Assembly: GCA_030765065.1 (NCBI GenBank)
Contig: CM060976.1
Location: 58,326,539 to 58,390,538, forward strand
Direction of reading: 5' to 3'
Length of the DNA: 64,000 bases
Source: Deroplatys truncata
Taxonomy: Eukaryota; Arthropoda; Insecta; Mantodea; Mantidae
The notes below the pieces were generated by a model. It saw only the letters and a program-made list of their open reading frames with translations. It was not told where the DNA came from and ran no database searches. How positions within the stretch are numbered: position 1 is the stretch's first letter; every line of letters starts with the position of its first letter. Both the position numbers and the translations under genes were made by a program. Positions 3,368-64,000 of the stretch are shown here, one piece after another.

Positions 3368-3524
3368 AGTTTTACATGCACATTCTCTCTCACATCCACA
3401 CTTCTGGAGTTTATGGAGGATAGAGAATAATTCTAAGTAAGGAAATATTCCCACCCTCCTGGGAATCGAACCCAGGACCTCCGGGTATTAAGCCAGCTCG
3501 CTTACCACTCGACCACGAAGGCAG
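3368..3524 (-). mobile_element. tRNA-derived SINE, head type 1
   Basis: Read on the minus strand, the element starts with a tRNA-like head whose A box resembles GTGGTCGAGTGGTAAG and whose B box is GGGTTCGATTCCC. A body follows with AATTATTCTCTATCCTCC and GTGTGGATG. The acceptor arms do not pair, so this is not a functional tRNA gene. The body is shared with the SINE at 3832-3991, whose head is different. It is expected to be transcribed by RNA polymerase III and mobilised by LINE machinery, as known for SINEs. Confidence 0.65.
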
Positions 3525-8957: not shown

Positions 8958-9783
8958 AAGTGTTACATTCTCTACCTTCTATCGTTTATTAGTGGGTATA
9001 CAAACTAGTCTTACTAAAGGTTATTTTTATATCTACTTCATTTTAAGCCAAATAAACATTAACAGAAATGGTTTTATTACACACTTCGTTATAGATAAAA
9101 AAAGAACAGCGATAGTTAAGTGTTTAAGAACTAGACGCTATACGCTGAGCTTAAAGTTTCATACTGTTTCAATGGAATCTCGAGAAACAACTGAATGTTG
9201 ACAGGACGTTAAAAGAATAGCTAAGTATAGAACAATTGTACCATTAATAACGGATATATCGTAAATGGCTGATGCTACAAAAACCGTTATTTGAGTTATA
9301 AAGAGATCTACATTCTCCATCGCTTAAGGTTTACCAATTATACAAGCATGTACAAAATTTCTTCCGAAATAAGAGGATTTCAAAGGCTATTCCCAAAAAA
9401 ATTTGAGATAAACATTTTATTTTTCATGAAAAAATCTTTAATAATGGTATTCAAATCAAAACTGTTACAGAAATTTTTATAACATAAAAAATTACCAAAA
9501 ATGTGCCAGGTAAAGGTAATTTGGAGTAGAAGATACTTTTGAATATCTTCGTGTCGAATCTTTGGAAGGTACTGAGCTTAAACACCCAATTTGGTGTTCA
9601 TCCAACTTTTCGTTTTTGATGAATGCTGTTCAAAGAAATACGAACGGTTCTGTTTCTAAAAATATTGTTTTTTTTATATTTAGAGTCCTCAAAACATGTA
9701 TTTCTGGTGAAATATCGGCATGGAATTTTTGGATGGAATGCAATACCTTCTTTACCTACTAGGTACATGGTAGAAAAAGTAAT
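8958..9783 (-). mobile_element. Family R, inverted copy with alternative module
   Basis: Bounded by GTGTTACATTCTCTACC on the left and GGTAGAAAAAGTAA on the right, that is the two family termini in reverse. It contains the module CAGTTGTTTCTCGAGATTCC (minus strand) that replaces the ATGCAAAGAG module of other copies. The GT tract is absent. Confidence 0.65.
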
Positions 9784-18310: not shown

Positions 18311-18963
18311 TAACTGTAACTCTAGAAGCCGAATTAGCGGAGAGAAAATTCATATCTTTAATATGGAGAAAGATCAAACGGCATTAAAATTTATGTGCAA
18401 TACGCTCTCTGGCATTTGTAAGGATTTTTATTTTAACTTGTTTCACAATTTATCTGAAAATGGACCGACTTTTGAACTTTTTATGATACGGTGATTTTAT
18501 AAGCATTAAATAAAACAAATATTTTGGCATAATACATGAAGTCGCAGTGAAAATGCGTGTTTTTATCGAGGATAAAAATGTAATATCTGGAATTTTGATG
18601 TTCGTACTGAACTTTTGTCATTAATGCTTCAGTTTTTGAAACTGAAAATATATTGCTACTGTGGTTTAAATAATATCGGTAAGATTGTCAGGTATTATGT
18701 AAAAATTACTCTACGGAGTGCACATAACACATTTTTTAAGACAGCACTCAAACAGTCGAAAGTTAGTGTAATTTTAAAAAATTAATAAACTAATAAGGTG
18801 CTAAATCTGGAAAAAGGACACATAGTCTTAATCTTGTTATAGTTTGCTCTTTCATCTTAAAAAATGCTAGCCTTTTTCCCCGTTGATTTGGATGATAGAC
18901 TAATTAAATTGGAAACACCTTCTGGTGCCTTTAACAAGATCTTTTATCAGTTTTAAAAAATAT
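18311..18963. other. Unassigned AT-rich sequence
   Basis: Nothing recognised. Confidence 0.4.
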
Positions 18964-19649
18964 GTGTTGCATTCACCTAACTTTCTTTAGACCTGTCGTT
19001 TATTAGTGGGTATACAGATTCTTCTTAGGAAAATTCATTTCTTATTTACTTAATTCTAATCGAGATAAACGGTTTGAGAACTAGCTATACATTATACATT
19101 TCGTTATAAATAAAAATACTGGTAGTCAAACGCTATACGCTGATCTCAAAATTTCATACTGTTTCCATGCAATCGCGGGAAACAACCGAATGTTGAAAGG
19201 ACCTTAAAGAATGACCAAGAAATGAACAATTCACATGTTTAATAAGGGATATCTCAGAAATGGCTTATGCACAAAAAAAACTTATTTGAAATACATTGGT
19301 GTCTTAAAGAGATCTGCATTCTTGTGTAGTGCCTTTTCGTCTACCGCATAATGTTTACCAGCTATACAAGATTATACAAAATTCCTTCCGAATGAAGAGG
19401 ACTTCAGAATCCCAGAAAATTCAAAATGTACATTTTATTTTTCATGTAAATATATTTAGTGTATGATATTTGAATCAAAATCGTTAAAGCCATTTTTAAA
19501 ACATCAACATTTTCAAAAAATGTTCCATGCAAAGGGTAGTTGAGGTGGGGGGATTTTCTTGAAAATCTTCGTGTCGCATCTGTGGAAGGTACGAACCTAA
19601 ATAACAAGTGGACTATTTATCTGTTCAATATCTGTTCACAGACTCATAG

Positions 19650-28492: not shown

Positions 28493-29226
28493 TACAGTGC
28501 CTTCGACTGTGTCAAGATCCCGGATCGCCGAATACTGCTCCGCACAGAGTTTACTACACTGCGAGGTTTTTCGTTCCGTAGCTCTCGCGTTACTTGCCCA
28601 CGAGTGTTAGTAACTTATATGTAATGAGTACTAACCTTTTTATAAGTGTTGTTGAAAGTGGTGTCCATTTGCGTGAATACATTCCGGACATTGTCGGATG
28701 ACATTACCATTTACACGCATAATCTTGTCTAGTGTTCACAATTTCTTCTTTTATATTGTTCTTAAGTTCGTCTTTGGTGTGGAGATTGTTCCTATAAACT
28801 TTATTTTTTAGCGTTTCGCGACCCCGTTATTCTCAATTTATTAACCAAACATCTCACAGTGTCTCTACCCGAAACTGGATAACCAGGAAATTGCTGCTGA
28901 AGTTGTCTACACACCTGTCTACAAGATTCAGTATTCATGTATGTATCGTACATAAAATACGCTGATTTAGCGTGAATTTGTTGGCAAGCATTTCCGTGTA
29001 CTAATAAGAGAATAACATTCCTAGGGAAATCACAAGAACGCACGTATTGTCGAAACACTTCACAACACAAAGACAAAGCAACGTCTGAGACAGCTCACAG
29101 CTAATAAACGTACCTTTGACATGTCCTACGTTGCTTCTGCGCAGTGGCATAAGACCGAGTCACTGCCGTTTCGGCCGATACGCACATAAGGCGGCTGTGG
29201 CCTTGTTGTAACACGAGGGCACTGTA
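28493..29226 (-). mobile_element. Tc1/mariner-like deletion derivative with TA duplication
   Basis: Terminal inverted repeats CAGTGCCTTCG (from 28495) and CGAGGGCACTG (to 29224) are bracketed by TA on both sides, as expected for Tc1/mariner/IS630 insertions. The 730-bp element contains only the N-terminal, DNA-binding part of a transposase on the minus strand; the DDE catalytic part is missing. It therefore cannot transpose by itself but could be moved in trans by a full-length relative. Confidence 0.7.
28801..29076 (-). pseudogene. N-terminal remnant of a DUF4817-type transposase
   Basis: The 91-residue frame contains a helix-turn-helix-like segment: DTYMNTESCRQVCRQLQQQF followed by FPGYPVSGRDTVRCLVNKL and the GS ending typical of the start of IS630/Tc1-type proteins in arthropods (tyrosine, spaced helices, YP..P.S..TV..L). 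This matches the layout of the DUF4817 domain at 51879-52082. Catalytic motifs are absent, and beyond 28801 the frame closes. I infer a deletion derivative rather than an independent gene; expression is unlikely. Confidence 0.5.
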
Positions 29227-31450: not shown

Positions 31451-31675
31451 AGGCTAAACCAATTACAACACAATTTGGCCTTCTAGAGGAAGATGGAAGA
31501 GGAGGGATGAAAAACTACTTGCACATGTTTTTAAACTGGACGACAAGCTACAACATTTGAATGACATCTTTCATCGTCGATATAGAGGTGAAGATTAGCG
31601 CTATTATCGAATGGCAATAATCAAACCGATATTAAGAAAACAAGGGTGTGATATGAAAATTGAAGTAGATTTGCA

Positions 31676-31698
31676 GCCCCACGTATAGAAAGCCAATT
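31676..31698 (-). other. Primer-binding-site-like motif next to LTR
   Basis: Minus strand reads AATTGGCTTTC then TATACGTGGGGC, similar to the primer-binding site and its two echoes in the 57-62 kb element. It lies ~55 bp outside the LTR at 31752-32458. Confidence 0.4.
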
Positions 31699-31751
31699 TG
31701 AAGTAGTTGTAATTTGAAGTTAATGTATTGCTGCTGTTGGAGAGCTAAACT

Positions 31752-32458
31752 TGAAGTTGTTAGACCACGCACGTTACAAAGTTTACGGTGGTGTTCGCCC
31801 CACGTTAACTTTCCCGCAGTCCTCGCCCCACATTTAAAAAAATCAACTTTGTATTTTAATGTTTATTTAAATATTATAAATGTATGTTTGCCTTGGCTGC
31901 GTCAGTAGTAATTTGCAGAAACACGTATCTTTTAGCAGCGGTTGGTGCGGTTAAAGAATGAAGGCTTACACAAATTATAATTTTTTACTTCACTCCTATT
32001 ATTATTCCTTCACACGATAAACTAACACTTTACTGATGTATGCTACTGCAGAGCTGTGAGATTATTGTTACTTGTACGTTTTAACACGTTTACCTTTTAT
32101 TATTCACGCTGTAATGAATATTTTAGGTCTCACGCTGAATACGTGTCTAACTGTTTGGGGACGCTGCCTAGTAGCGTCTGCCGTCTAGCTCTTAAATTTA
32201 TATATTTCCACTATTTCAATTTCTGATTGGCTAATCCTACTCCAATAGAATACTTTTATTTAACTTAAGCTCTTTCTAGTTGTTGATTGGCTATTTATTA
32301 AAAATGTTTTAAATATTACATTATAGTTCCAAGAATTACTAGTAGCATTATTAAACTTTCTAATTTATTGTTGTCTCAAGTTACCTCATTGTTAGCCACT
32401 TTCGGCTTCTATTCTCACAGCTCCTAATTGTTGAATTACATAATACATTCACATAACA
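31752..32458 (-). mobile_element. Solo LTR of family L1, copy A
   Basis: The minus strand begins TGTTATGTGAATG and ends CAACTTCA. It aligns over its length with 56339-57072, which is in the opposite orientation: shared segments include TAGAAGCCGAAAGTGGC, TCCTACTCCAATAGAATAC (opposite strand) and GCCTTGGCTGCGTCAG (opposite strand). No coding sequence of a retrotransposon adjoins it that I can identify, so I call it a solo LTR. The ~700-bp length and TG...CA ends are as usual for LTRs. Confidence 0.65.
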
Positions 32459-33328
32459 TTATTATACACGTACATAAGAATACAATGGATGTTACATACG
32501 CTTTATATATTATTTATACACATATTGGTTTAAGGTGGGCTGTTATTATATTTTATATTATGTAATCAGACTGATATTACTTAAGTGTTAAAAATACTGC
32601 CACAAAATGCAAGGTTTAAGTTGTTATGTTACCTTTCGGCAGTTCGGCCATATTTTGTGGGAGGTAACGCATCCTGCCAATCCAGTGACTAGAATTATGC
32701 TCGAAAAACAGAGCAGATCACACTGGCTGAGGGAGGGGTAGTTTCTGAGTATCAACAAAATGGGTACGTTCTATTACGCGTCACATTCTATGCACGTCAA
32801 TATACTCGTACACAAATGCCTGTAAAATAACTGACTTTCCAATAAACGCTGGTTTCGGGTAATCTTTCAGCTGTGATCACAGTCCTGTAATTACTCGCTA
32901 CAGGATCAGGGAATTCTGTACATACAATCATAGAGACATGGTGCTTGGGCACAGGAAGTTCTTGGGAAGCCCTTTGTGAATCTGCTTGCCTCTCCTCTTC
33001 TCTTTAATTGATTCACGCCATGCTCCAATCAACTTGAAACAGTACCTGTTATTCTCCACAGAGTTAGTCATCAAAACTCAGCTACGATGCAATTCTGCCC
33101 ATGACCGTACGAACATTTGATTGTTGGCAGCATATTCAACTGGAGAACAATCCCAACACTTGCAAAGCTTTGAGAGAAGCCACCCGCCCGTATTGACCCA
33201 TGTGCTTGTAGTTTACTCACCTTATAGGTGGGCATTCCTGATCAAGTTTGGCACGTACTGTATCTACCTATTCGGTTAGTGGAATACACTACTTGATGAA
33301 ATGTAATGCAACAAAAGGTTTCCAGTTT
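32459..33328. other. Unassigned sequence
   Basis: No supported feature. Confidence 0.4.
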
Positions 33329-40119: not shown

Positions 40120-41415
40120 TACGAGGACGGATCGAAAAGTAAAGCACAATAATTTTTTCTGCCTTGGAATTGCAGCAGGAATGTTGCAATTTCACACAGA
40201 TATAGTTTGAAGTTTTCAATAAAAAGAGTAATTTTTATTTCATGTGCAACTCTAGCGAGAGAAGCATGAACTATGCAAATATGGCACGCATGTTACTGTC
40301 GTCAACGTGTGAAGAGAAAAGGGCCAAAGGGCACAAACCGAGTGATATTCACAAGGAAAACCGTGGCTTATATGGGGATGATTGTATGGACCGTAGCAAC
40401 GTCTCCAGGAGTTGTGTATTCTTCCTAGAGGGCCGTGTGAACCTTAGTGATTCGCCACGTTCTGGGAGGCCGATAACAGCTGCCACACCACAGAATGTCA
40501 AAGGCATTGAGGCGGCAAATTTTAACGATCGGCGTGTGCAACTGCGAAACTTGTAACAGCTCAACATTTCCTATGGCGCAGTCTACGATATTGTTCATGG
40601 CACGTTGAAATTTCGTAAAGTTCGCTGGGTGTCTAAGAACCTGGCAGACAATCACAAGGACCAGTGAATGATGACGAGCTTGGATCACCTAGCGCGGTAC
40701 ACCGCAGAAGAGGATGACCTTCTGAAAGGAATTGTCACCGTCGATGAGTCGTGGGCATACCACTACACGTCCGAAACCCAGTAGGCAAGCGTGGAGTGGA
40801 AACATGTTGGTTCCCCAGTGAAGAATAAATTCAAAGTGACTCAATCTGCTAGAAAAGTACTTGTGACGGTGTTCTGGGATATGCATGGTTTTGTATTGGT
40901 GGACTTTGCTGATCACGGGACCACTGTGAATGCTGCGGTCTACATGAAAGCTTTGGTGAAGTTGCATCATGCCCTTCGTGACAAACGCCACAACATGAAT
41001 GCTGATGATGTCAAACTTCATGATAATGCTCACCCCCACATTGCTGTTGTTGTTCGTCAGAAAATCACCAAATTTGCTTGGGAGGTGCTCCAGCATCCAC
41101 CATACAGTCCGGACTTTGCACCGTCGAACTTTCATCTCTTTGGTCCCATGAAGAAATTCCTGGCCAGCCAACGCTTTGCGTCAGATGTGGAAGTGAAATC
41201 AGCAGTCCGCAGATGGCTATACATCAAGGAGACGGACTTCTACGAACAGGGTATATTGAAACTGGTATAACGATGGGAGAAATGTGTTTAGAAACTTGGT
41301 GACTATTTCAAAAAGTAGGTAAAAGTTGTAAGTTCATTTGTGGTTTTTTTTGTTTTAACCTTTAAACTTTTTTGAAAAAAAATTATTGTGCTTTACTTTT
41401 CGATCCGCCCTCGTA
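40120..41415 (+). mobile_element. mariner-type DNA transposon with TA duplication
   Basis: The element (40122-41413, 1,292 bp) has terminal inverted repeats of about 36 bp, beginning CGAGGACGGATCGAAAAGTA on the left and CGAGGGCGGATCGAAAAGTA on the right, that differ at one position in the first 36. TA at 40120-40121 and 41414-41415 is the target duplication. The single transposase gene fills the interior. Length, repeat size and target are all as known for mariner elements. The intact ends mean it could still be mobilised in trans. Confidence 0.92.
40242..41270 (+). pseudogene. mariner transposase, inactivated by stops and a catalytic substitution
   Basis: One frame of 343 codons covers the whole protein, the usual length for mariner transposases (~345), without any frameshift. 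It is broken by three stops: TAA 40554-40556, TGA 40665-40667 and TAG 40782-40784. N-terminal DNA-binding features precede GRVNLSDSPRSGRP, the linker region. Catalytic motifs: VTVDESWAYHY (first Asp present), LHDNAHPH (second Asp present), and HPPYSPDFAPSNFHLF, where the third catalytic Asp expected 34 residues after the second is Asn. The carboxy end FYEQGILKLV is typical. The start is the ATG at 40242. A DD34D enzyme with Asn at that place is expected to be inactive even without the stops. Confidence 0.9.
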
Positions 41416-44561: not shown

Positions 44562-44769
44562 TCCTACACCTAAAACCATCAAAGCTAACTCATTTAATTT
44601 GCCTTCTAAAACCTCGCCATATCCACTAGTGTTGCAGCCATGAAACCTGGTTGCACCCTAGTTACTACATTCACCCGCTCCCACTCGTAGGGCGGCAGCC
44701 AACAGCTTTCACGTACTAAAGCGGGTGCTATGTGGGACCGCACAACCTTTACGCTATTCCATTCTTTCT

Positions 44770-50616: not shown

Positions 50617-52481
50617 CACAGGGTGAATCACCTAAAACTTGCACCGCAAATATTTCGGAAATGGAAAGTGCTATTGATGTGCAGTTTTTACAGAATTGAT
50701 TGGTAGTCAGAGGCTCGTACATTTAGTCTATAAACAGATTTTAATAATACTGAGAAAGTGCATATTTTGGGCAAACACACAATGTTTTAAACGAAACAAT
50801 ACCTAGTTACATAACAGAATAAAGGTAGGGCAAATTAGAATGTCAGTGACGTTTGTTGCAAGATTCTAGTGCGGTTTACGAGAAATCTTATTTTGAAACT
50901 TTTAAGCACCGACACTTGTACAACCTGTGGCCGCATAAACTGTAGAAAAACAAAAGGAAATTGCAATACTTCTATGGATTCTTAAAGGTAAAGGGAATAT
51001 AACCCTTCAAAGGTTGAATTCAAAATAACCACCGGCAGCTTCAATATACGCTTCCAATCTGCTATGGAAAGACTGCTACACACGTTCTAGAATTTCAGCG
51101 GAAATTTTAGAGCAGGCAGCAGTAATACGTCCTTTCATATCGCCTGGTGTAGTTGGTACATCCTTGAAGATAGTGTCTTTCAGCCTTACCAAAGAAAAAA
51201 TCTAAAGGTGTCAGATCCGGTGAACGGACCGGCCAAGGTACAGGTCCTCTTCGTCCAATTCAACGATTTGGAAACAATCCGTTAAGACAAGCTGTAGTAC
51301 TTCGCGCACTATGGGATGGACAGCCATGATGATGGTACCACAGGTTCCTCCTAGTCTGCAAAGGAACGTCTTCTAGCATCTGTAGCAGATGGTCTGTCAG
51401 GAGGCTACGAGACTTGTGCGAGTTCATTGTTCCTTCTATGAACAAAGGTCCTGTGAGCTGATGGTTCACTATCCCACACCACACGTTTAAACTGTATGGA
51501 CGTTGACGTTCCACCTCACGAAGCTAACGGGGCTTGTCAACAAACCAATAGTGCATGTTTCCTCGGATTACCTAGTCATGATTACTAAATGTTGCCTCAT
51601 CACTAAACTAGATACATGATGAATCTGGAGTATCATGCCTAAATGATAAAAGTTAACACGATTCTCAAAATCGTTTTTATTCAGCTCTTAATGGAGAGAG
51701 ATGTAATAGGGATGGAAGCTATGTCGATGGAGAATGAGCAGTACACTTGCCTGACTTATGCCGCTTCCACGTGCGTTTGTGCGGGAACTAATTTGCGGAT
51801 CTACTGCATCGGCAGCCAAAACATTAATTTTTACCGCTTCTTCAGTCACTTGTTTGTTTCTGTTACGTTTTCTAGGTGTTACAGTACCCTTTCACGTAAT
51901 TGGTTGAAGAGGTTGATAAATAATTGCCGAGATGGTTGACGTCTATTGGGATACGCTTCCGCATTCACAGTACAGGAATGAACTGCGTTCTTCCTACACT
52001 CTCCATACACCATGAGTATGTCGGCTTTTTCTGCACTAGTAAACCCTATCTTCCATTCACGACTTACTGCTTGAACTGTCACAAACTAACTGACCAGAAA
52101 GTCGCAATGCAATCAATGAACAGAAAACATAATGCAAACATAACATCGTACCTAGCAACTAAGCAGGTTGAAGGGAACAAACAATAGTCTGGTGTTTTAA
52201 AAATACGATTTCTCGTAAACCACTTGCACTGGAATCCTACAACAAAGACGATTGCCATTCTTATTTATTCTAGCTTTATTCTGTTGATAGAAGTAGGTAT
52301 TGTTTCATTTAAGAAAGTTGTATGTTTGCTCAAAAAACACACTTACTCAGTATTATCAAAAGGCTAAATGGGCTAAACGTACGAGCTCCTGACTATCAAT
52401 CAATGCTGTGAAAACTGCACATCAATAGCACTTTTCATTTCGAAACATTTGTGGTGAAAGTTTTGGGTGATTCACCCTGTA
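50617..52481 (-). mobile_element. Tc1/mariner-superfamily element with ~280-bp inverted repeats
   Basis: The left end (CACAGGGTGAATCACC..., about 50617-50894) and the right end (about 52199-52479, ...GGTGATTCACCCTG) are reverse complements over roughly 280 bp, with numerous substitutions. Between them on the minus strand lie remnants of one transposase. TA follows the right end and lies just before the left end (50615-50616). The right TA is the first dinucleotide of a TATG microsatellite. Length ~1.86 kb. Long inverted repeats of this kind are unlike classical mariner but known in several Tc1-like groups. Confidence 0.8.
51010..52085 (-). pseudogene. DUF4817 + DDE transposase, decayed
   Basis: Read on the minus strand from 52082, the N-terminal part has GFTSAEKADILMVYGECRKN and YPNRRQPSRQLFINLFNQLR, the DUF4817 helix-turn-helix layout of arthropod transposases. 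After frame changes FSDEATFSNHD appears near 51610-51580, carrying the first catalytic Asp. At 51514-51260 the core continues with VWCGIVNHQLTGPLFIEG and the segment HHGCPSHSARS, where the usual second Asp (DGAPAH-type motif) is His. GPVPWPVRSPDLTPLDFFF follows with the third catalytic Asp region. At least two frameshifts and several stops break it, so the enzyme is not functional. Likely a dead member of a family that could mobilise the 28.5-kb derivative's relatives. Confidence 0.75.
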
Positions 52482-52592
52482 TGTATGTATGTATGTATGT
52501 ATGTATGTATGTATGTATGTATGTATGTATGTATGTATGTATGTATGTATGTATGTATGTATGTATGTATGTATGTATGTATGTATGTATGT
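52480..52592 (+). repeat. (TATG)n microsatellite, ~28 units
   Basis: About 112 bp of almost perfect tetranucleotide repeat starting at the exact edge of the preceding transposon. Open frames of repeating Tyr-Ile-His-Thr or Val-Cys-Met-Tyr over it are artefacts. Confidence 0.97.
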
Positions 52593-54519: not shown

Positions 54520-55585
54520 ATTTGCTCTACCATGTACATAGTAAGTAGAGAAGGTATTGCATTCCACCCAAAATTTCGATACCGAGATTTTACCGGAAAT
54601 ACATGTTTTGAGGACCCCCGAATCCAAAAGCATTTTTTAGAAAAAGGTCCGTGTGTGTGTTTGTGAACAACATAACTAAAAAACGAAAATTTGGATAAAC
54701 ACAAGACTTGGTATTTAGATTCAGTGCGTTCTGAAGATGCAACAAGAAGATTCTTAAGAAAATTCTCTCACATTAAACTACACTTTAAATGAAAGATTTT
54801 TTGAAATATTTGATTTTTTAAAAAACAACTAACTATTTTAATTAAAATATTATATATTAATGAAAGTTGCATCACATGCAAACTTTATATCTTGAATTTT
54901 TTGGGAATAACCTTTGAAGCCCTCTTCATTCGGAGGAATTTTATATAAACTTCGATAACTAGTAAACGTTAAGTGATAGAATAAGACGCACTACACAAGA
55001 AATGTAGATCTCTTTAAAACACACAATCTATTTCAAATAAACTTTATTGTGGCATCAGCCATTTCCGAGATATCTGGTATAACGGTTCGAATTCTTCATT
55101 ACTCGATCATTCTTTAAAGTCCTGTCAACATTCAGTTGTTTCTCGCGATTGCATTGAAAATAGTATGGCGAGTTTTTAAACCCGGCGGAGGGTGGTGGAT
55201 TTTTTCGGGAGTAAAAATCTTTAGTATGGCTTCCTTCGAAAGGGAAGTAAAGCTGGTGGTCCATTGTCGTAGATTTACGGCACGTAAAAGAACCTCACGC
55301 CTGATGGAGCTTCTGAGCAAAATTTACGGTCTTTCCCGTACAATATAGAATGGTACGTTAAGGACCATAGTAGTTAAAGAGTGTCCATAAATAAAACTCT
55401 TTTTGAGTTTTTAACCATTGGACTATCGCTGTTCCCTTTGTATCCATAACGAAAGGTGTAATGTAGCTATTTATGCAAAGGTTTATTTGAATTAAGATGA
55501 AGTAGATAGAAAAATAAGCTTTCGTAAGAATAGTTTGTATACCCAAATAAGCGATGGAGTGTAAATAAAGTAACGTGAATGTAAA
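54520..55585 (+). mobile_element. Family R (alternative module) copy interrupted by a SINE
   Basis: The left part starts near TTGCTCTACCATGTACATAG and includes the GTGTGTGTGTTTGTGAACAA stretch (54650-54670). The right module contains CAGTTGTTTCTCGCGATTGC, where the S2 SINE has inserted, then resumes with CCATTGGACTATCGCTG and ends GTAAATAAAGTAACGTGAAT. Confidence 0.7.
55170..55414 (+). mobile_element. SINE S2, 5'-truncated, with 10-bp target duplication
   Basis: GAGTTTTTAA occurs at 55170-55179 and 55405-55414. The insert starts inside the B box (ACCCGGCGGAGGG) and continues through TTTTTTCGGGAGTAAAAATC, TCGTAGATTTACGGCACG and AATAAAACTC, matching the full-length copy at 26.0 kb. The missing head is typical 5' truncation during reverse transcription. 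Confidence 0.85.
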
Positions 55586-56113
55586 AAATAAGACTTTTGT
55601 TTTTAAATTGTAAAATTTTAAGTCGCTTGATAGTAGAACTCGTACAAGATACACGACTTAAATATAATGCTCTTACGCAATAATATCAGTTTAGCACAAT
55701 GCCTTTTGCAGAGCTATAAAAAACTTCAAATGTGCTGAACAGGGAAGAAGAGATTTGGAAGACTATATATTAAAGGAAGGTTCTACATGGTGTACTGAAT
55801 AAAATACTGGCGTACCACTTTTTCCTCTCAATATGTTGTACAATTATTTTATGCCAGAATTTAGGCAACTCTCTTGTTTCCTGACACCTTTTAATATCAG
55901 AACGCGCTTAAAGCTATGCTCAGTTTAAAAGAAACTAACCAGTGTTTCCTCTGCATTTTTATTGTGTAAAATCCACAGGTATTATACAATTTCCAATTGA
56001 AGTCCTGCACAACTTAATTTTCGTTATATAGTATATTTGGCAGTGGTAGAGCCTTAACCTTCTTTATGTCCGTTTTAAAATGGCCACGTTTATTAGCGTC
56101 CGTGTGTGTGTTT

Positions 56114-56161
<48 letters not shown>

Positions 56162-56338
56162 GGAAACCACTCGTCACATTTTGATAATTCTTTCACCATT
56201 GGAAGCCGCTGTTCTTCATTTGAGGCAGTATTTTTAACACCTAAATGATTCAAGTCTAATTATATAATATAAAATATAATAAAATATATGTAACAGTCAT
56301 TGTGGTAATGTTTATATTATAGTATACATGTACAACAA
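55586..56338. other. Unassigned sequence with GA microsatellite
   Basis: Contains an (AG)n run at 56115-56159 of about 22 units; otherwise nothing recognised. Confidence 0.45.
56115..56159 (+). repeat. (AG)n microsatellite
   Basis: About 22 units, flanked by GTGTGTGTGTTTGAGAC. Confidence 0.95.
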
Positions 56339-57072
56339 TGTTATGAGAGTGTATTAGTTAATTTAACAATATAGGAGCTGTGATAATAGAAGCCGAAAGT
56401 TGCTAAAAATGAGGTAAAAATGAGGTAACCTTGAGACAATAGTGAATTGGAAAGTTTAATGATGCTACTAGCAATTCCTGGAAACATTAATGTAATATTT
56501 TTAAAACAGCTTATAAATAGTCAATCAACAACCAGAAGGACTAAAAGTTAAATAAAAGTATTCTACTGGAGTAGGATTAGCCAATCAGAGACTTGAAATA
56601 GATGAAATTTGCAAATTCAGGCGGTAGAAGTCAGTCCTAGTAGACAGGTCACAACTGGAACTATACGCGTTCACAAGCAGTTAAAATACGTATCCAGTGT
56701 GAGACATATAAAATACATTACGGTGCGATTATTATAAAGTTGACATGTTAAAAAGTTCAAGTAATTAATAAATGATCTCACAGCTCTCTAATAAGTGAAG
56801 TGTTATTTAATATGGATTAATAAATGGAGTGAAGTAAAAATTGTAATTTGTGTAAGCCTGCATTCTTTAGCCGCATCACAACCTGCAAAGAGATACATGT
56901 TTCTACAAATTAATACTGACGCAGCCGAGGCAAACCTAAATATATATAATAATTAAAGTAAACATTCGGGCGAAGGCCAACGGAAAGTAAACTTGGGGGA
57001 AGACCACCGGAAAGTGAACGTTGGGGCGAAGGCTACCGGAAACTTTCTACTAAACGTGGGGCAGTTACTTCA
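56339..57072 (+). mobile_element. Solo LTR of family L1, copy B
   Basis: Begins TGTTATGAGAGTG and ends GTTACTTCA; aligns to 31752-32458 in inverse orientation along its whole length. The last ~110 bp contain three ~29-bp imperfect tandem units (GGGCGAAGGCCAACGGAAAG, GGGGGAAGACCACCGGAAAG, GGGGCGAAGGCTACCGGAAA) that the other copy lacks in that form. Immediately beyond the end lies TTTGGCTCCCCAACAGTTG, a primer-binding-site-like sequence, with no internal region after it. Confidence 0.65.
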
Positions 57073-57189
57073 TCAAGTTTGGCTCCCCAACAGTTGAACT
57101 ACAATACAACTCCTCCTAAAATAAACCATCTTCACCTCCCAGCCATAAACTATAAGCCCGCTTGTAATTTCGACCATAATGTCTAAAAT

Positions 57190-57340
57190 ATTGTGACTAT
57201 GTTCAGTTTTTCAACTTATCTAGTTCAGCTTCTCTTGGAGTTCACTTCGTTCACACTATCGCTTCACTAAGGTGAACTAATTCAAATCCGTCACCTCACT
57301 CCATTCGCGACGTAGTCTCTTCACGCCTCAGGGTTCTCTT
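57190..57340. repeat. LTR-like repeat L2, left piece
   Basis: TCAGTTTTTCAACTTATC, TTCACTAAGGTGAACTAATTC and GCGACGTAGTCTCTTC match the copy at 9895-10330 in order, up to the insertion point of the LTR retrotransposon. Confidence 0.5.
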
Positions 57341-58361
57341 TGAAGTAGAATATTTGTTAGCCCCACGTTTGGAAGCCAATTTGAAGTATGGTATATTTGT
57401 AGGTAGTTGGAAAATGCTTCATGTTTATCTGCACCACGTATGGACGCCAATTTGTCGCGGTCACTTCGTGTTATCTTATTTCTGAGGGCCTATTATTGTT
57501 TTACTACTTTGAATGTTGGGTTCATTGTCCTCCGGCTAGCTATTATTATTATTCAGTCGAGCATATCTCTTGATCAAGGTGTGTAAACGGAAAGGATTTG
57601 TTACTGAAAGATGACACTGATAAAAGAATTTGTTTTTACACTTTTATTGTCGTCACACATTATTCAATTTCACATATTGATTCTTGATACACGCCAGACT
57701 GAAACTGTTATATTTTCTAATATCACTATAATCACTTATTTGCTGCACATTACTAATTCGCGTATTTCATATTTATAACTAACTTTACGACGCGAGAGAT
57801 TCTGTAGAATTGCGTAACGTGTACTTTAAGTATGTTTCCGTTGAACTATGCAACGTGTAACCCGCGAACGATTCTGATGAACTAAGCGACGTTTAACTTC
57901 TGAATGATTCTGTTGGACTCAGCGACGTGTAATGCGTGGATGATTCTGTTGAACTGGACAATATTTGCCTCTGGCTTTAGCTTTTTATACTCCCACACTC
58001 TAATATGCCTAAACATTACAACAGAGCTGCTATTGGTTAATAAAACGCGCCAACATTAGCGTCTATTTTTATATCCAATAAAAAATTATGAAAACATATG
58101 CTCTAAGGAAGAAATTCCCGCCATTTCTAAGAAAAGCGCGCCAATCTGACGTCATTTGCTTGTCTCTAATAATTGATAAACAACTCACCCCCTCGCTCAT
58201 TGTTACCCGCTTTTATTGTCAGTTTCAGTGAGGCCGTGTAAACTTATTTCCTAACAATGCTTATAATTAACAAACATCTCAAATCAATGTCATACAATAA
58301 TGCTTATTTACACTACAATCACTCTGGCATTTACATTGTTGTGATACAAATTACTGCCACA
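57341..58361 (-). repeat. 3' LTR of element L3 (1,021 bp)
   Basis: Contains five imperfect ~36-bp tandem units at about 57790-57965 built around GATTCTGTTGAACT and GCGACGTGTAA. The other LTR has one unit less. It also holds two primer-binding-site-like motifs near its inner-strand end at 57360-57381 and 57431-57452. Confidence 0.85.
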
Positions 58362-58375
58362 TATGCCCCACTAGA
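58362..58375 (-). other. Polypurine tract of element L3
   Basis: Minus strand CTAGTGGGGCATA directly precedes the 3' LTR's TGTGG. G-rich, as needed for plus-strand priming, though short and interrupted. Confidence 0.5.
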
Positions 58376-59023
58376 AACATAATTATAAATATTTACAACT
58401 TGTTTGGAAATTTTATAATTGGGTTTTTAGTCTCCTGAATCTTGGAACACACGGTATTTATCACTTGCACTTAACACTGCACACGCATTTAACACACGTC
58501 CTACATTTTGCCTTTTTCTCGCCAGTATTCACTGGCTCTGGTCTAATGTGTTTATATACATACATCTAACATTACAATTTTTATAGCAAATACTGTACCC
58601 TGAACTATTAGTTACAAAATGTTTATACTTTCTTAGATTATTAACAGAATTTTATACACTCAAGATTTTTAACCTGGTTCATCTTGTAATTATTGAACAT
58701 ATATACTAAAATATTCATCCTCTACACAAATATATTTACATCTCTTAAATCTAGACACAATTTCACATTTTCTGTGTGCTACATAAGTGTTTTGTTTTAA
58801 TTATCTTACCCTTTTTATTGTTTTGTGCTTTATATTCACAATACTATTTGAATTATATCTACGTACTTTTACTTTAATATGACATTAAGTTTTCATTATT
58901 ACATGTTTCATTTCAAATGCTGTTACAGTTTACTAAGAAAAGGTTCTTTTTCCCTTTTAAAGATTTATTTTTATCCAGAATTTACTTCTCCTTTCTCATG
59001 ACATATATACATAGATAACCCTC
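58376..59023. other. Non-coding interior of element L3
   Basis: AT-rich, with no open frame over 60 codons and no pol motif; this is where pol would be expected. Confidence 0.6.
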
Positions 59024-60448
59024 TTACATTCCAATAGTTTTGTTCTGCAGTTCAGATTTAACTATCCAGAATTTGCTTGCTTTTTTTTTAGCGGTCATTT
59101 CTATTCCCTTTCCGGGATCGAATTGTCTATGGCTAAGCATTACTCGTAGCTGTATCGTAACATTCCAAAATCTGTTCATAAATAGCCTCTTTAAGGATTC
59201 ATATAAAATTTCACCCCATGATACCATTTGAAACCAATCTAAAGTTTTCTGGTCCAAACATATTTTGACAACTATCATTTTCAATGCTTCCGGTATCTTT
59301 TTAATTTGAAAATACTCTGACAAGTCTGCAAAAAACTGTACTGGATTGGAGTTTTCATTAAATTTTGGAAGTGGAAAATCACTTAAGATATGATTATAGT
59401 TTTGAATGTCCCTTACTCCCATATTTAAATTCTCTAGTGTTACTTGTGCACTCTGAGTTTAAGCATGAGCTATAGATGAAGCCACCGCATCACTCACATT
59501 ATTAGTCATACCTGAGGAACTACCTCTATCATTATTCTGTACATCAGATACATTAATATCATATATATTGACCCTTGAATTCAATTCTAACCTATTTATA
59601 GTGCCTTGCAGATTTTCTATTGGCTGTTCCAATTTTTTATTGTTCTCATTTTGAACAGCTTGGTGCTTGTTAATTTCAGAAGTTAGTTTTTGATTCAAAT
59701 CTATAGACAAAAATTTAACTTCTTCGGACAACTTATTTCTTTGTGATTCCGACTCCTGAACTTCAGATATCTCCCCTCTGAAACTAACTTGCACCTGAAT
59801 TAAATCTGCATTCATCTCTCTTAGCTCACTTGAAATGCTACTCATTCGACTTCCTAACTCTGTACATTTTACACTAACATGTTCAAACTTGGTATCAACC
59901 TCACTTTTTTGGTTAGATATTTCCCTGCTCATGTCTGACATTTTCTTTGAAACTTTCCCTATCTCATTTGCTATCATTTCCTGATTTTCATTTCTCATTC
60001 TTATTATACTGCTTTCTAGCTCCATAAATTTCTTTTCAATTTCTTCCCTGTTTTGTTCTAAGCTCTTACGAATATCTTCCCTTAAGTCCTTATTATTCTT
60101 TTTCATATTCTGCGTTAGTTTTTCTTCTAAGCTCCTACCAATATCTTCCATGTTTTGATTTAATTTTTGCTCTAATTTCTCATTATTCTTCTCATTATTC
60201 TTGTTTAATGTTTCACCAAAATTTCTCAAAATTTCCATCATCATACTAGCATCAAAATTAACATTTCCTGCTATTCTATTATGACTTTCTTCACTAATAT
60301 TTCCTCCTTCAAATCCTACATTGTTTGAGCTATTTTCTGTAACCTGTATTGAATTACAGCTAACTGTTACATTATGCCCTTCCATAAATATTTCTTCAGT
60401 ATTATTAGTGGACATTGTTTTCTTAATCCTACCACTTCTTAATAACAT
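59024..60448 (-). pseudogene. gag of element L3, split by one in-frame stop
   Basis: Starts with ATG at 60448 (MLLRSGRIKK, a common gag start in insect Ty3/gypsy-like elements). Residues ~70-290 are rich in Glu, Lys, Asn and Gln with strong heptads, for example SLEEKLTQNMKKNNKDLRED, and predict a long coiled coil. A TAA at 59459-59461 ends the first 329 residues. The same frame continues without a shift for 145 codons to 59024; it includes FPLPKFNENSNPVQFFADLS and a RLFMNRFW segment, the pattern of the retrotransposon gag/capsid domain. No CCHC zinc knuckle follows. Either the stop is a single inactivating mutation or two proteins are made; I favour the mutation. Confidence 0.75.
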
Positions 60449-60788
60449 TTAAATTTTCACAATTTTTTTTAGGATAAAAAAAAATTTACAAATTTCTAAC
60501 CTTTCTGATGCTATCTGATGATGTTGCTTTGATGTCCAGATTCCTGCCCCTCTCTCCTAGATGTATATGACGCCTCTGCGTCGTACTACGATGGATCTGC
60601 GTCGTTTTGCTGTATTTGTTGTCGTAGTTGAATTTCCCTGTTGCCTTCTATTCTCATAATTACGATGTCCACTCATCCGCTTCGTCGGTTGTTCTTGTGG
60701 TTTTTTCTGGAATCTGCGTCTTGTAGTTAATTTCACTGCTCTATTCGCTCCACGTCGTGGTTCCTTCGTCCCTTCCTGGTTATTTCGC

Positions 60789-60809
60789 TCCACGTTCTGG
60801 GTGCCAATT
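60789..60809 (-). other. Primer-binding site of element L3
   Basis: Minus strand AATTGGCACCCAGAACGTGG begins right after the LTR end. The plus strand reads as a tRNA 3' end finishing in ...GGGTGCCA. The tRNA species was not determined. Confidence 0.7.
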
Positions 60810-61792
60810 TGAAGTAGAATATTTGTTAGCCCCACGTTTGGAAGCCAATTTGAAGTATGGTATATTTGTAGGTAGTTGGAAAATGCTTCATGTTTATCTG
60901 CACCACGTATGAAAGCCAATTTGTCGCGGTCACTTCGTGTTATCTTATTTCTGAGGGCCTATTACTGTTTTACTACTTTGAATGTTGGGTTCATTGTCCT
61001 CCGGCTAGCTATTATTATTATTCAGTCGAGCATATCTCTTGATCAAGGTGTATAAACGGAAAGGATTTGTTACTGAAAGATGACACTGATAAAAGAATTT
61101 GTTTTTACACTTTTATTGTCGTCACACATTATTCAATTTCACATATTGATTCTTGATACACGCCAGACTGAAACTGTTATATTTTCTAATATCACTATAA
61201 TCACTTATTTGCTGCACATTACTAATTCGCGTATTTCACATTTATAACTAACTTTACGACGCGAGAGATTCTGTAGAATTGCGTAACGTGTACTTTAAGT
61301 ATGCTTCCGTTGAACTACGCAACGTGTAACCCGCGAACGATTCTGATGAACTAAGCGACGTTTAACTTCTGAATGATTCTGTTGAACTGGACAATATTTG
61401 CCTCTGGATTTAGCTTTTTATACTCCCACACCCTAATATGCATAAACATTATAACAGAGCTGCTATTGGTTAATAAAACGCGCCAACATTAGCGTCTATT
61501 TTTGTATCCTATCAAAAATTACGAAAACATATGCTCTAAAAAAAATTCCCGCCATTTCTAAGAAAAGCGCGCCAATCTGACGTCATTTGCTTGTCTCTAA
61601 TAATTGATAAACAACTCACCCCCTCGCTCATTGTTACCCGCTCTTATTGTCAGTTTCAGTGAGGCCGTGTAAACCTATTTCCTAACAATGCTTATAATTA
61701 ACAAACATCTCAAATCACTGTCATACAATAATGCTTATTTACACTACAATCACTCTGGCATTTACATTGTTGTGATACAAATTACTGCCACA
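60810..61792 (-). repeat. 5' LTR of element L3 (983 bp)
   Basis: Same as the 3' LTR except for about 20 substitutions and one missing 36-bp tandem unit. It contains the motifs at 60829-60850 and 60900-60921 that resemble the primer-binding site. On the minus strand TTTTTATACTC-like sequence (61415-61430 region, AAAAAGCTAAATCC opposite) could serve as promoter, but this is a guess. Confidence 0.85.
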
Positions 61793-62260
61793 ACTTCATT
61801 CGTGAATCGAACACTAGATCTCCACAACCCGTCCTCCGCAGTAGTACTCGCCGCATATCATGACAGCCGGCACCATCTCCTTCGGAGAATCGCTCTGATG
61901 TCGCACGGGAGCTCACCCGCCTGCTCCCTCACTCACTAACTGATCGACTTGACTCACTCTGTCACCACTGACACACTCCCGCGAGAGCGCTCGCTTGTGT
62001 AGTCAGTGGAAGGTTCTCGAACGTCCAAGAACGATTTCGACACACTTTCTGAAGGAGAGGGATATAAGGATTCCAGAAGGTTCTAGTTATCTGCTGATAA
62101 CGAGCACGGTGTTTATGATCGCGAGCGACCGCTATCGTTGTTTACTCCGACCTCCCGGTGCCGCCCTTCCCATTACCTTGGACCATAGGTGCTACATCAC
62201 AATATTAATCAGGATTTTCAGAGCCTCAACACTAGAATATGAACATTTTGGAGACATGGT
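61793..62260. repeat. LTR-like repeat L2, right piece
   Basis: CCGCAGTAGTACTCGCCGC, GAGAATCGCTCTGATGTCG and GAGCGCTCGCTTGTGTAGTC correspond, diverged, to the second half of the 9895-10330 repeat. It continues GC-rich to ~62180. With 57190-57340 it forms one repeat split by element L3. Confidence 0.45.
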
Positions 62261-62514
62261 ATACTCTCATAAGCAACTTTGGCTTTTCTTTTAGAATTCA
62301 TGAATTAGAACATTTTCGTTGTAGTTATTATTATTATTATAATTATTATTATTACAAATAAAATTCATGTACAAAACTGTGATGGGTTCCAATGGCTCTC
62401 TTACTCTACTAAAAATTACTCACAAAAGCTCATTTCTCTATCTGTTTCTTGTTAATAGGGTTAGACTTTCAATACGCATTTCGTTGTAGGTAAGAAGAAG
62501 GATACACTAGCTGA
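62261..62514. other. Unassigned with TTA/ATT microsatellite
   Basis: An interrupted (TTA)n run lies at about 62325-62354; nothing else recognised. Confidence 0.5.
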
Positions 62515-62770
62515 AGTCCGGTCAATATTCAGTTGTTTCTCGCAATTGCATGGAAACAGAATATAATTATAAGGCCAGAATATAAAACCAAGCTCTTAAA
62601 CATTTGACCTTCGCGTTCCCGTTATATCAAACGAAATGTGAAATGTAGGTATTTCTGCATTTAATTTCTAGATTACAATAAAGCACATAGAAAACAAGTT
62701 TTTGTAAGAATAGTTAGTATGCCTACTAATAAATGAAAGGGTTGAGAATCTCACGTGAATGTAATATATT
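62515..62770 (+). mobile_element. Family R alternative-module right half
   Basis: Begins GTCCGGTCAATATTCAGTTG and TTTCTCGCAATTGCATGG, ends GAGAATCTCACGTGAATGTA. Same module as at 55.1 and 9.2 kb. Confidence 0.55.
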
Positions 62771-64000
62771 GAGATTTTTTCTAGTTCTTGTTTTTAAAAT
62801 GATTTAATTAATGAAATTATTCCTTGAGAAATACACAAACTTCATTTATTTACCTTTTCAGTTTTTGTTAACAAGCTGATGAATACTGAGCAGAAGCGGC
62901 AGAACTATACACATCATCTCGTATTTTCACACGTTGTTTTAAGTGTGTATGTTCGATCATATAATTATATTGTAATTACACCTCTGGTAGCTACACTTTA
63001 ATGAACCTCTTTAAAATGCAGCTGTTCATCAAAGAGCGTTAATTACAAATAATCTTCCGATAAATTCCATTTGTTATCTGTTTTTCAATGTCTAGCTTTT
63101 TAAGGTTGTAGCGTAAATGTAACAGTTTAATTAAGGTCATTATTTCTGGGGAAAAATCAAACTATTGCCTGTGCACATCTCAGTAGCATACCAGCTGTTG
63201 CCATCAAGTATGCATGGCCAAAAAGGTAAGAAATTTATGAATATGTGTAGAGAAGTCGGCCACGATATGGGTGCGTTCTGTAAGAAGGGGAACCTAACAG
63301 TTACGAAACAAATGAGCTGGAAATTGTAGCTGCAATCAGGCAAAGTAAACATCCTCAGTTCCAAGTTGCATTTACTAATGAGTCTTTGGCGTGCAAATGT
63401 AGTACTGTTTTCATTGTGCAACTGTACATTCCCATTACGCTTGCCTATCATTCCCCTCGGAACGCAAACCTTGCGACGTTACACATTATCAACTGGCTAG
63501 TGGATGGGGAGTCCTTTCAAGCAAGTAGGGGTTTAGCTACTGGAAGGAGGTAATGTTTACTTGGTCTGAGTCAAGTGATGAGTAAAGAAGCAGGATAGAG
63601 GAAAACTGCTGACTGCTTTCTATTGTCGGTGACAGCGAGGCAGGAGTTCAGCATACTGTGTACCCCTCCCACCAGCTAAAGCTTCAGCTGAGAGATAGGG
63701 CTTCCCACGCCACTAGCTAAAACGTCACTGAACAGATAGTACGCAACCTGCCTATAGTGATAATCAAGACACATGTATAGAAATTATGATACGAGCAACA
63801 GCGAGTATTGTAACCATACTGGTGTCTTAATTACCTCCATTATAGGCTCTTAGTCCAAATTACTATTTAATGCGCTTAAAGGATATTATATAGATAGATA
63901 AACAATGGTAATGTTACTTCTGGTGTTGTCTTATAAATGTCCTCTTTAATTTATATGAACATTTTAAAATTGGGTCTTATATACCTGAATTCTGCAACTC
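62771..64000. other. Unassigned sequence to window end
   Basis: No gene or repeat supported. A 103-codon frame at 63140-63451 (minus) is not recognised. Confidence 0.4.

Follow-up and report, generated by a model that had tools for sequence, protein, structure and literature searches.

Results

An LTR element on the minus strand

The window, that is, the whole stretch of 64,000 nucleotides that was analysed, contains an element at 57341-61792 whose outer parts are as follows.

57341-61792, minus strand: LTR element, whole; two direct repeats and a 2448-bp interior
60810-61792, minus strand: 5' LTR, 983 bp, starting with TGTGGCAG and ending with ACTTCA (minus strand)
57341-58361, minus strand: 3' LTR, 1021 bp
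57832-57955, minus strand: array of 36-bp tandem units in the 3' LTR, 3.4 copies
61311-61388: the same array in the 5' LTR, 2.2 copies
58362-58372, minus strand: weak polypurine-tract-like stretch, AGTGGGGCATA, adjoining the 3' LTR, found by eye
57337-57340: left flank, TCTT; with the right flank it may form a 4-bp target-site duplication in which one base differs
61793-61796: right flank, ACTT; the other half of that possible duplication

The long direct repeats have TG...CA termini, as LTR retrotransposons do. Their alignment showed 98.07% identity over 983 aligned bases, with 19 substitutions (13 transitions and 6 transversions), a K2P distance of 0.0196 and gaps of 2 bp and 36 bp, the latter sitting within the tandem array of 36-bp units, and the two complete, ~98% identical LTRs described in the earlier note were thereby confirmed. 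Both LTRs carry TATAAA and, further on, AATAAA on the minus strand, with other copies of both short motifs also present. The element is oriented along the minus strand, hence the repeat at 60810-61792 is the 5' LTR. The position of 59.0 kb previously given for the 3' LTR is instead the end of the gag-like frame described below, the 3' LTR beginning at 58361. The flanks, TCTT and ACTT, agree at three of four bases; for comparison, an exact AAAT duplication borders a solo LTR at 31661-32604. A polypurine tract had also been claimed, and the stretch AGTGGGGCATA does lie ahead of the 3' LTR, but it is weak, with a purine run of at most four when read by eye on the minus strand.

A Lys-type primer site and its copies inside the LTR

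The boundary between the 5' LTR and the interior holds a primer binding site, and related modules lie within the LTRs themselves.

60787-60806, minus strand: primer binding site, adjoining the 5' LTR; tRNA-Lys-like with an insertion, fit 26/36
60810-60851, minus strand: module B, primer-site-like, ending at the 5' LTR terminus; also in the 3' LTR at 57341-57382
60900-60923, minus strand: module A, primer-site-like, deeper in the 5' LTR; fit 22, inside the simulated range
~57431-57454, minus strand: counterpart of module A in the 3' LTR, fit 28

Fits were scored against the tRNA-Lys primer-site sequence. The top four fits in the window all fell within the element; three of them, inside the ends of the LTRs, scored 28 each, and the site proper scored 26. 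The maxima of 10 Markov-simulated windows ranged from 20 to 24, and the 26/36 of the site proper exceeded every one of them, which bears out the earlier report of a primer site and places it, as a Lys-type site, beside the 5' LTR; the fit is imperfect there and lower than that of copies within the LTR. Not every copy rose above the simulated range, the scores being 22 for module A of the 5' LTR, 23 for a module in the solo LTR and 24 for an unrelated place at 44677.

The primer-site region is present three times, as module A and module B, both inside the LTR, and as the site proper (anchors 60919, 60848 and 60807, respectively). When these and the solo LTR module were compared in six pairs, the observed score of each pair was reached by none of 2000 base-shuffled controls, the weakest pair being the site proper and the solo LTR module, which scored 36 where the shuffles reached up to 35. 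A module pattern ending in ACTTCA matched three times in the window, each time ending at an LTR terminus (31661, 57341 and 60810), and a second module pattern matched four times, with no match to either in 100 shuffles, chance figures that are flattering since both patterns were composed after these sequences had been viewed. Folding of the U5/primer-site region revealed no RNA structure beyond that of shuffled sequences (z 1.29; 181 of 200 folded equally well or better).

The end of U5 is set by the position of the primer, so the last reverse transcription of the element should have begun at the third site. Had priming taken place at module A or module B on earlier occasions, the LTRs would have come out ~112 or ~41 bases shorter, respectively. 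The stacked modules, present at one locus plus one solo LTR, are the most interesting feature found here.

Another LTR family in the window shares the LTR ends

Two further LTR copies belong to a different family.

31661-32604, minus strand: solo LTR of another family, 944 bp, with an exact 4-bp target-site duplication, AAAT
56219-57106, plus strand: LTR copy akin to the solo LTR (72%); it lies to the left of the element, on the opposite strand

The last ~67 bases are common to the solo LTR and the element LTR (80.6%, E 4.8e-07), and the first ~20 bases of the solo LTR match the element LTR position for position, a match of 21 bases at only E 0.33. With these common ends removed, no other significant similarity was detected between the two LTRs. 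The sharing of a U5 end with another LTR family in the window makes a helper that recognises such ends plausible.

In the U5 of the solo LTR there are another two primer-site fragments of the AACGTGGGGCGAA type. The copy at 56219-57106 carries a 29-bp tandem array close to its end and is, by eye, without the last module of the solo LTR.

Elsewhere in the window, a mariner-type transposase remnant was identified at 40785-41267 (Pfam Transposase_1, E 3.5e-16), and a frame at 28804-29094 matched the DUF4817 helix-turn-helix above the cut-off (E 1.1e-05). A repeat at 62514-62795 has many diverged copies in the window on both strands (e.g. 8962-9207, 18955-19202 and 55406-55621), and a perfect (TGTA) tandem array of ~29 copies occupies 52478-52592. 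ARAGORN predicted one tRNA-like gene with an undetermined anticodon (3450-3524, minus strand), and Rfam gave no match at gathering score within the window.

A broken gag-like frame in the interior

The 2448-bp interior comprises a leader of 361 bp, a frame running from 60448 to 59024 and a 662-bp tail.

59462-60448, minus strand: gag-like frame, piece 1; 329 codons, coiled-coil-like, N-terminus MLLRSGR
59459-59461, minus strand: in-frame TAA stop, splitting the gag-like frame into 329 + 144 codons
59024-59458, minus strand: gag-like frame, piece 2; 144 codons + stop, judged to be the N-terminal part of a capsid that is incomplete
58362-59023, minus strand: tail from the gag frame to the 3' LTR, 662 bp, 28% GC, no trace of pol found

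Piece 1 was longer than the longest frame in all 500 simulated interiors (maximum 218, mean of the longest 99), which argues that it is a real coding remnant, and the length of piece 2 was only mildly unusual, 7 of 500 simulated versions of that region reaching 144 codons. One stretch of piece 2 is what we take, by its motif, to be the N-terminal region of a Ty3/Gypsy capsid, and the frame presumably ends at the point where roughly half of the capsid is expected. From this motif and the position of the frame we infer that 60448-59024 is gag, and that it ends mid-capsid and without a nucleocapsid.

Database searches returned no gag family match to the frame in Pfam, NCBIfam or PDB sequences, and no gag or capsid match to piece 2 in Pfam, PDB sequences or a PDB fold search. 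The single-sequence fold model of the 144-aa piece was of low confidence (mean pLDDT 45.5), and the PDB fold search with it yielded 19 matches at E ≤ 10, of which not one reached E 0.001 or was informative. The similarities of piece 1 were those of coiled coils in general, namely to Pfam Apolipoprotein (E 0.00011 and 22.4 bits, where the cut-off is 90), to the PDB entry for apolipoprotein A-I (E 0.00039) and to SMC models. Such generic similarities, together with the lack of a gag family match, would also be expected if the long frame were not gag at all and represented an accessory or captured coiled-coil gene between two LTRs, but the frame directly follows the leader, and its order of parts, with a coiled coil at the N-terminus and a capsid-like motif after it, fits Gypsy gags, so that we regard a captured gene as very improbable.

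Taking the frame as gag, the 1.4-kb gag frame of the earlier note survives as a long coding remnant but not as an uninterrupted one, given the TAA at 59459-59461 between the 329 and 144 codons. The accompanying suggestion that the element might supply its own capsid is not supported, given this in-frame stop, the judged end of the frame within the capsid and the lack of a nucleocapsid. We read what remains of the frame as a relic rather than a working capsid gene.

Two other candidates in the interior were dropped: an Arg-rich leader frame of 133 codons at 60560-60958, whose length was reached in 23 of 1000 simulations and is thus weak, and an 11-base repeat by the gag end (58973 and 59064), considered as a deletion footprint and set aside because both of its copies are still there.

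No trace of pol found in the tail

A Pfam scan of 58362-59060 covered stop-to-stop pieces of at least 25 aa and found reverse transcriptase, integrase and protease absent from all 18 pieces; the sole match among them was unrelated (E 2.4). The 662-bp tail and these 18 pieces agree with the previous statement that the interior has neither room for nor trace of pol. Since an LTR-gag-LTR arrangement without pol is real at this locus, transposition in such a form would need reverse transcriptase and integrase from outside, as had also been proposed.

Searches outside the window

Relatives of the element were also sought in viral contigs and prokaryote genomes, collections in which insect repeats are not expected. 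The gag pieces gave 6 and 1 pattern-matching stretches in the viral contigs, and piece 2 gave 36 in the prokaryote genomes, none of which was confirmed. Three viral contigs that matched the LTR-end pattern (L001, L002 and L003) were judged to be chance matches, as they are dense in long frames and showed nothing in common with the element by tblastx at E 0.01.

Discussion

Nature of the element

We consider it reasonably probable that a Ty3/Gypsy-type LTR retrotransposon, perhaps or probably an Osvaldo-like one, gave rise to the element by internal deletion, leaving a non-autonomous copy. The Osvaldo-like lineage is proposed on the grounds of LTR length and the Lys primer site, pol being absent from the copy. 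The single copy seen would derive from a larger element. It would retain the cis-acting parts, namely the LTR promoter, the poly(A) signal, the Lys-type primer site, the weak polypurine tract and the LTR ends, and would have lost the remaining capsid, the nucleocapsid and all of pol. Had the deletion preceded insertion, the helper would have been an autonomous relative whose LTR ends and primer site were the same, supplying the enzymes and probably the capsid too; had it followed insertion, the copy would never have moved in such a form.

The LTR identity says nothing on when the deletion occurred and gives no choice between these two orders. The second order, a sub-case of the deleted-copy reading in which a complete copy was inserted and later lost its middle in a one-off event, is compatible with that identity, and the 2% LTR divergence, the broken frame and the imperfect flanks all mark a decayed copy; against it, no remnant of pol was found in the 662-bp tail and nothing positive bears on the order of events, and we think it fairly unlikely.

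The LTR-gag-LTR layout and the 98% identical LTRs would suit a gag-only, TR-GAG-like family, in which many copies inherit this structure, supply Gag and borrow pol from a relative, the stop seen here having been acquired after insertion. A lone stop among ~474 codons could reflect recent decay, and a TR-GAG of Arabidopsis, AT5TE33540, has transposed according to the excerpted text of its report (PMC8704663). That element, however, is described there with a full-length GAG of 562 aa, whereas the present frame looks cut mid-capsid and lacks a nucleocapsid; there is also no Pfam gag domain, and a single copy was seen. A family of this kind is therefore unlikely in our estimation, and the internally deleted copy remains the preferred reading.

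A broader and distinctly improbable proposal would place the element in an animal family of gag-bearing, pol-less LTR elements whose LTRs grow stepwise: with LTR-end and tRNA-Lys modules in tandem, reverse transcription could start at site 1, 2 or 3, downstream priming would absorb the upstream site into U5, and LTR families with nothing else in common could, through the module ends that they share, be mobilised by a single helper integrase. The stacked modules would offer a testable route for the growth of LTRs and for the acquisition of common ends by different families.

Comparison with known systems

Among the literature matches listed, whose titles and abstract beginnings were available, none presented a natural stack of primer sites inside an LTR, which does not prove absence; a second primer site in a designed vector is a different matter (PMC5542766, in excerpt). 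Oddities related to the stacked LTR end are already in print. In the excerpts of a mosquito study, three Osvaldo elements have an unusually conserved stretch of 29-30 bases spanning the LTR/primer-site boundary, and at that boundary one element has 26 bases of its LTR duplicated, together with a tRNA dimer (PMC3286476). The same excerpts list 11 Osvaldo-like elements of Culex with LTRs of 997-2055 bp and a tRNA-Lys primer site (PMC3286476). The element described here resembles them in its LTRs of ~1 kb, its tRNA-Lys primer site and the odd conservation over the LTR/primer-site boundary, with one of its LTRs (983 and 1021 bp) slightly below the 997-2055 bp range and a Lys-type site that is imperfect. 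The mosquito Osvaldo elements, in contrast, were classified by pol, which the present element lacks (PMC3286476, as excerpted).

Other non-autonomous LTR elements of insects include those of Culex (PMC3286476) and PbTRIM of an ant (PMC3532108). The Culex group is described as having no coding sequences (PMC3286476). TRIMs are small, whereas a gag-like frame remains in the element here. Another parallel is CM-gag of Culex pipiens, reported from an insect as a reiterated transposable-like element containing only gag, a likeness that goes by the title alone as cited in PMC3286476. That title weakens, without settling, the earlier suggestion that such an element in an animal would be new.

The earlier note was right that gag-only LTR elements are known in plants, where the excerpted literature treats TR-GAG elements, with two LTRs and a single GAG frame, as an established class (PMC9784723; PMC8704663). 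Like them, the present element has two LTRs around one GAG-type frame with no pol in between, and TR-GAGs are described in these excerpts as depending on a partner element. Unlike them, and unlike the full-length GAG of the transposing Arabidopsis copy, its frame is not intact, being broken by the TAA at 59459-59461, without a Pfam gag match and apparently truncated, and it comes, to judge by the kind of repeats in the window, from an insect, with one copy seen. One defective, pol-less LTR copy is ordinary, and a single broken copy is of little consequence. Should such copies form a family, they would provide a clear example, in animals, of LTR elements that retain gag and borrow their pol.
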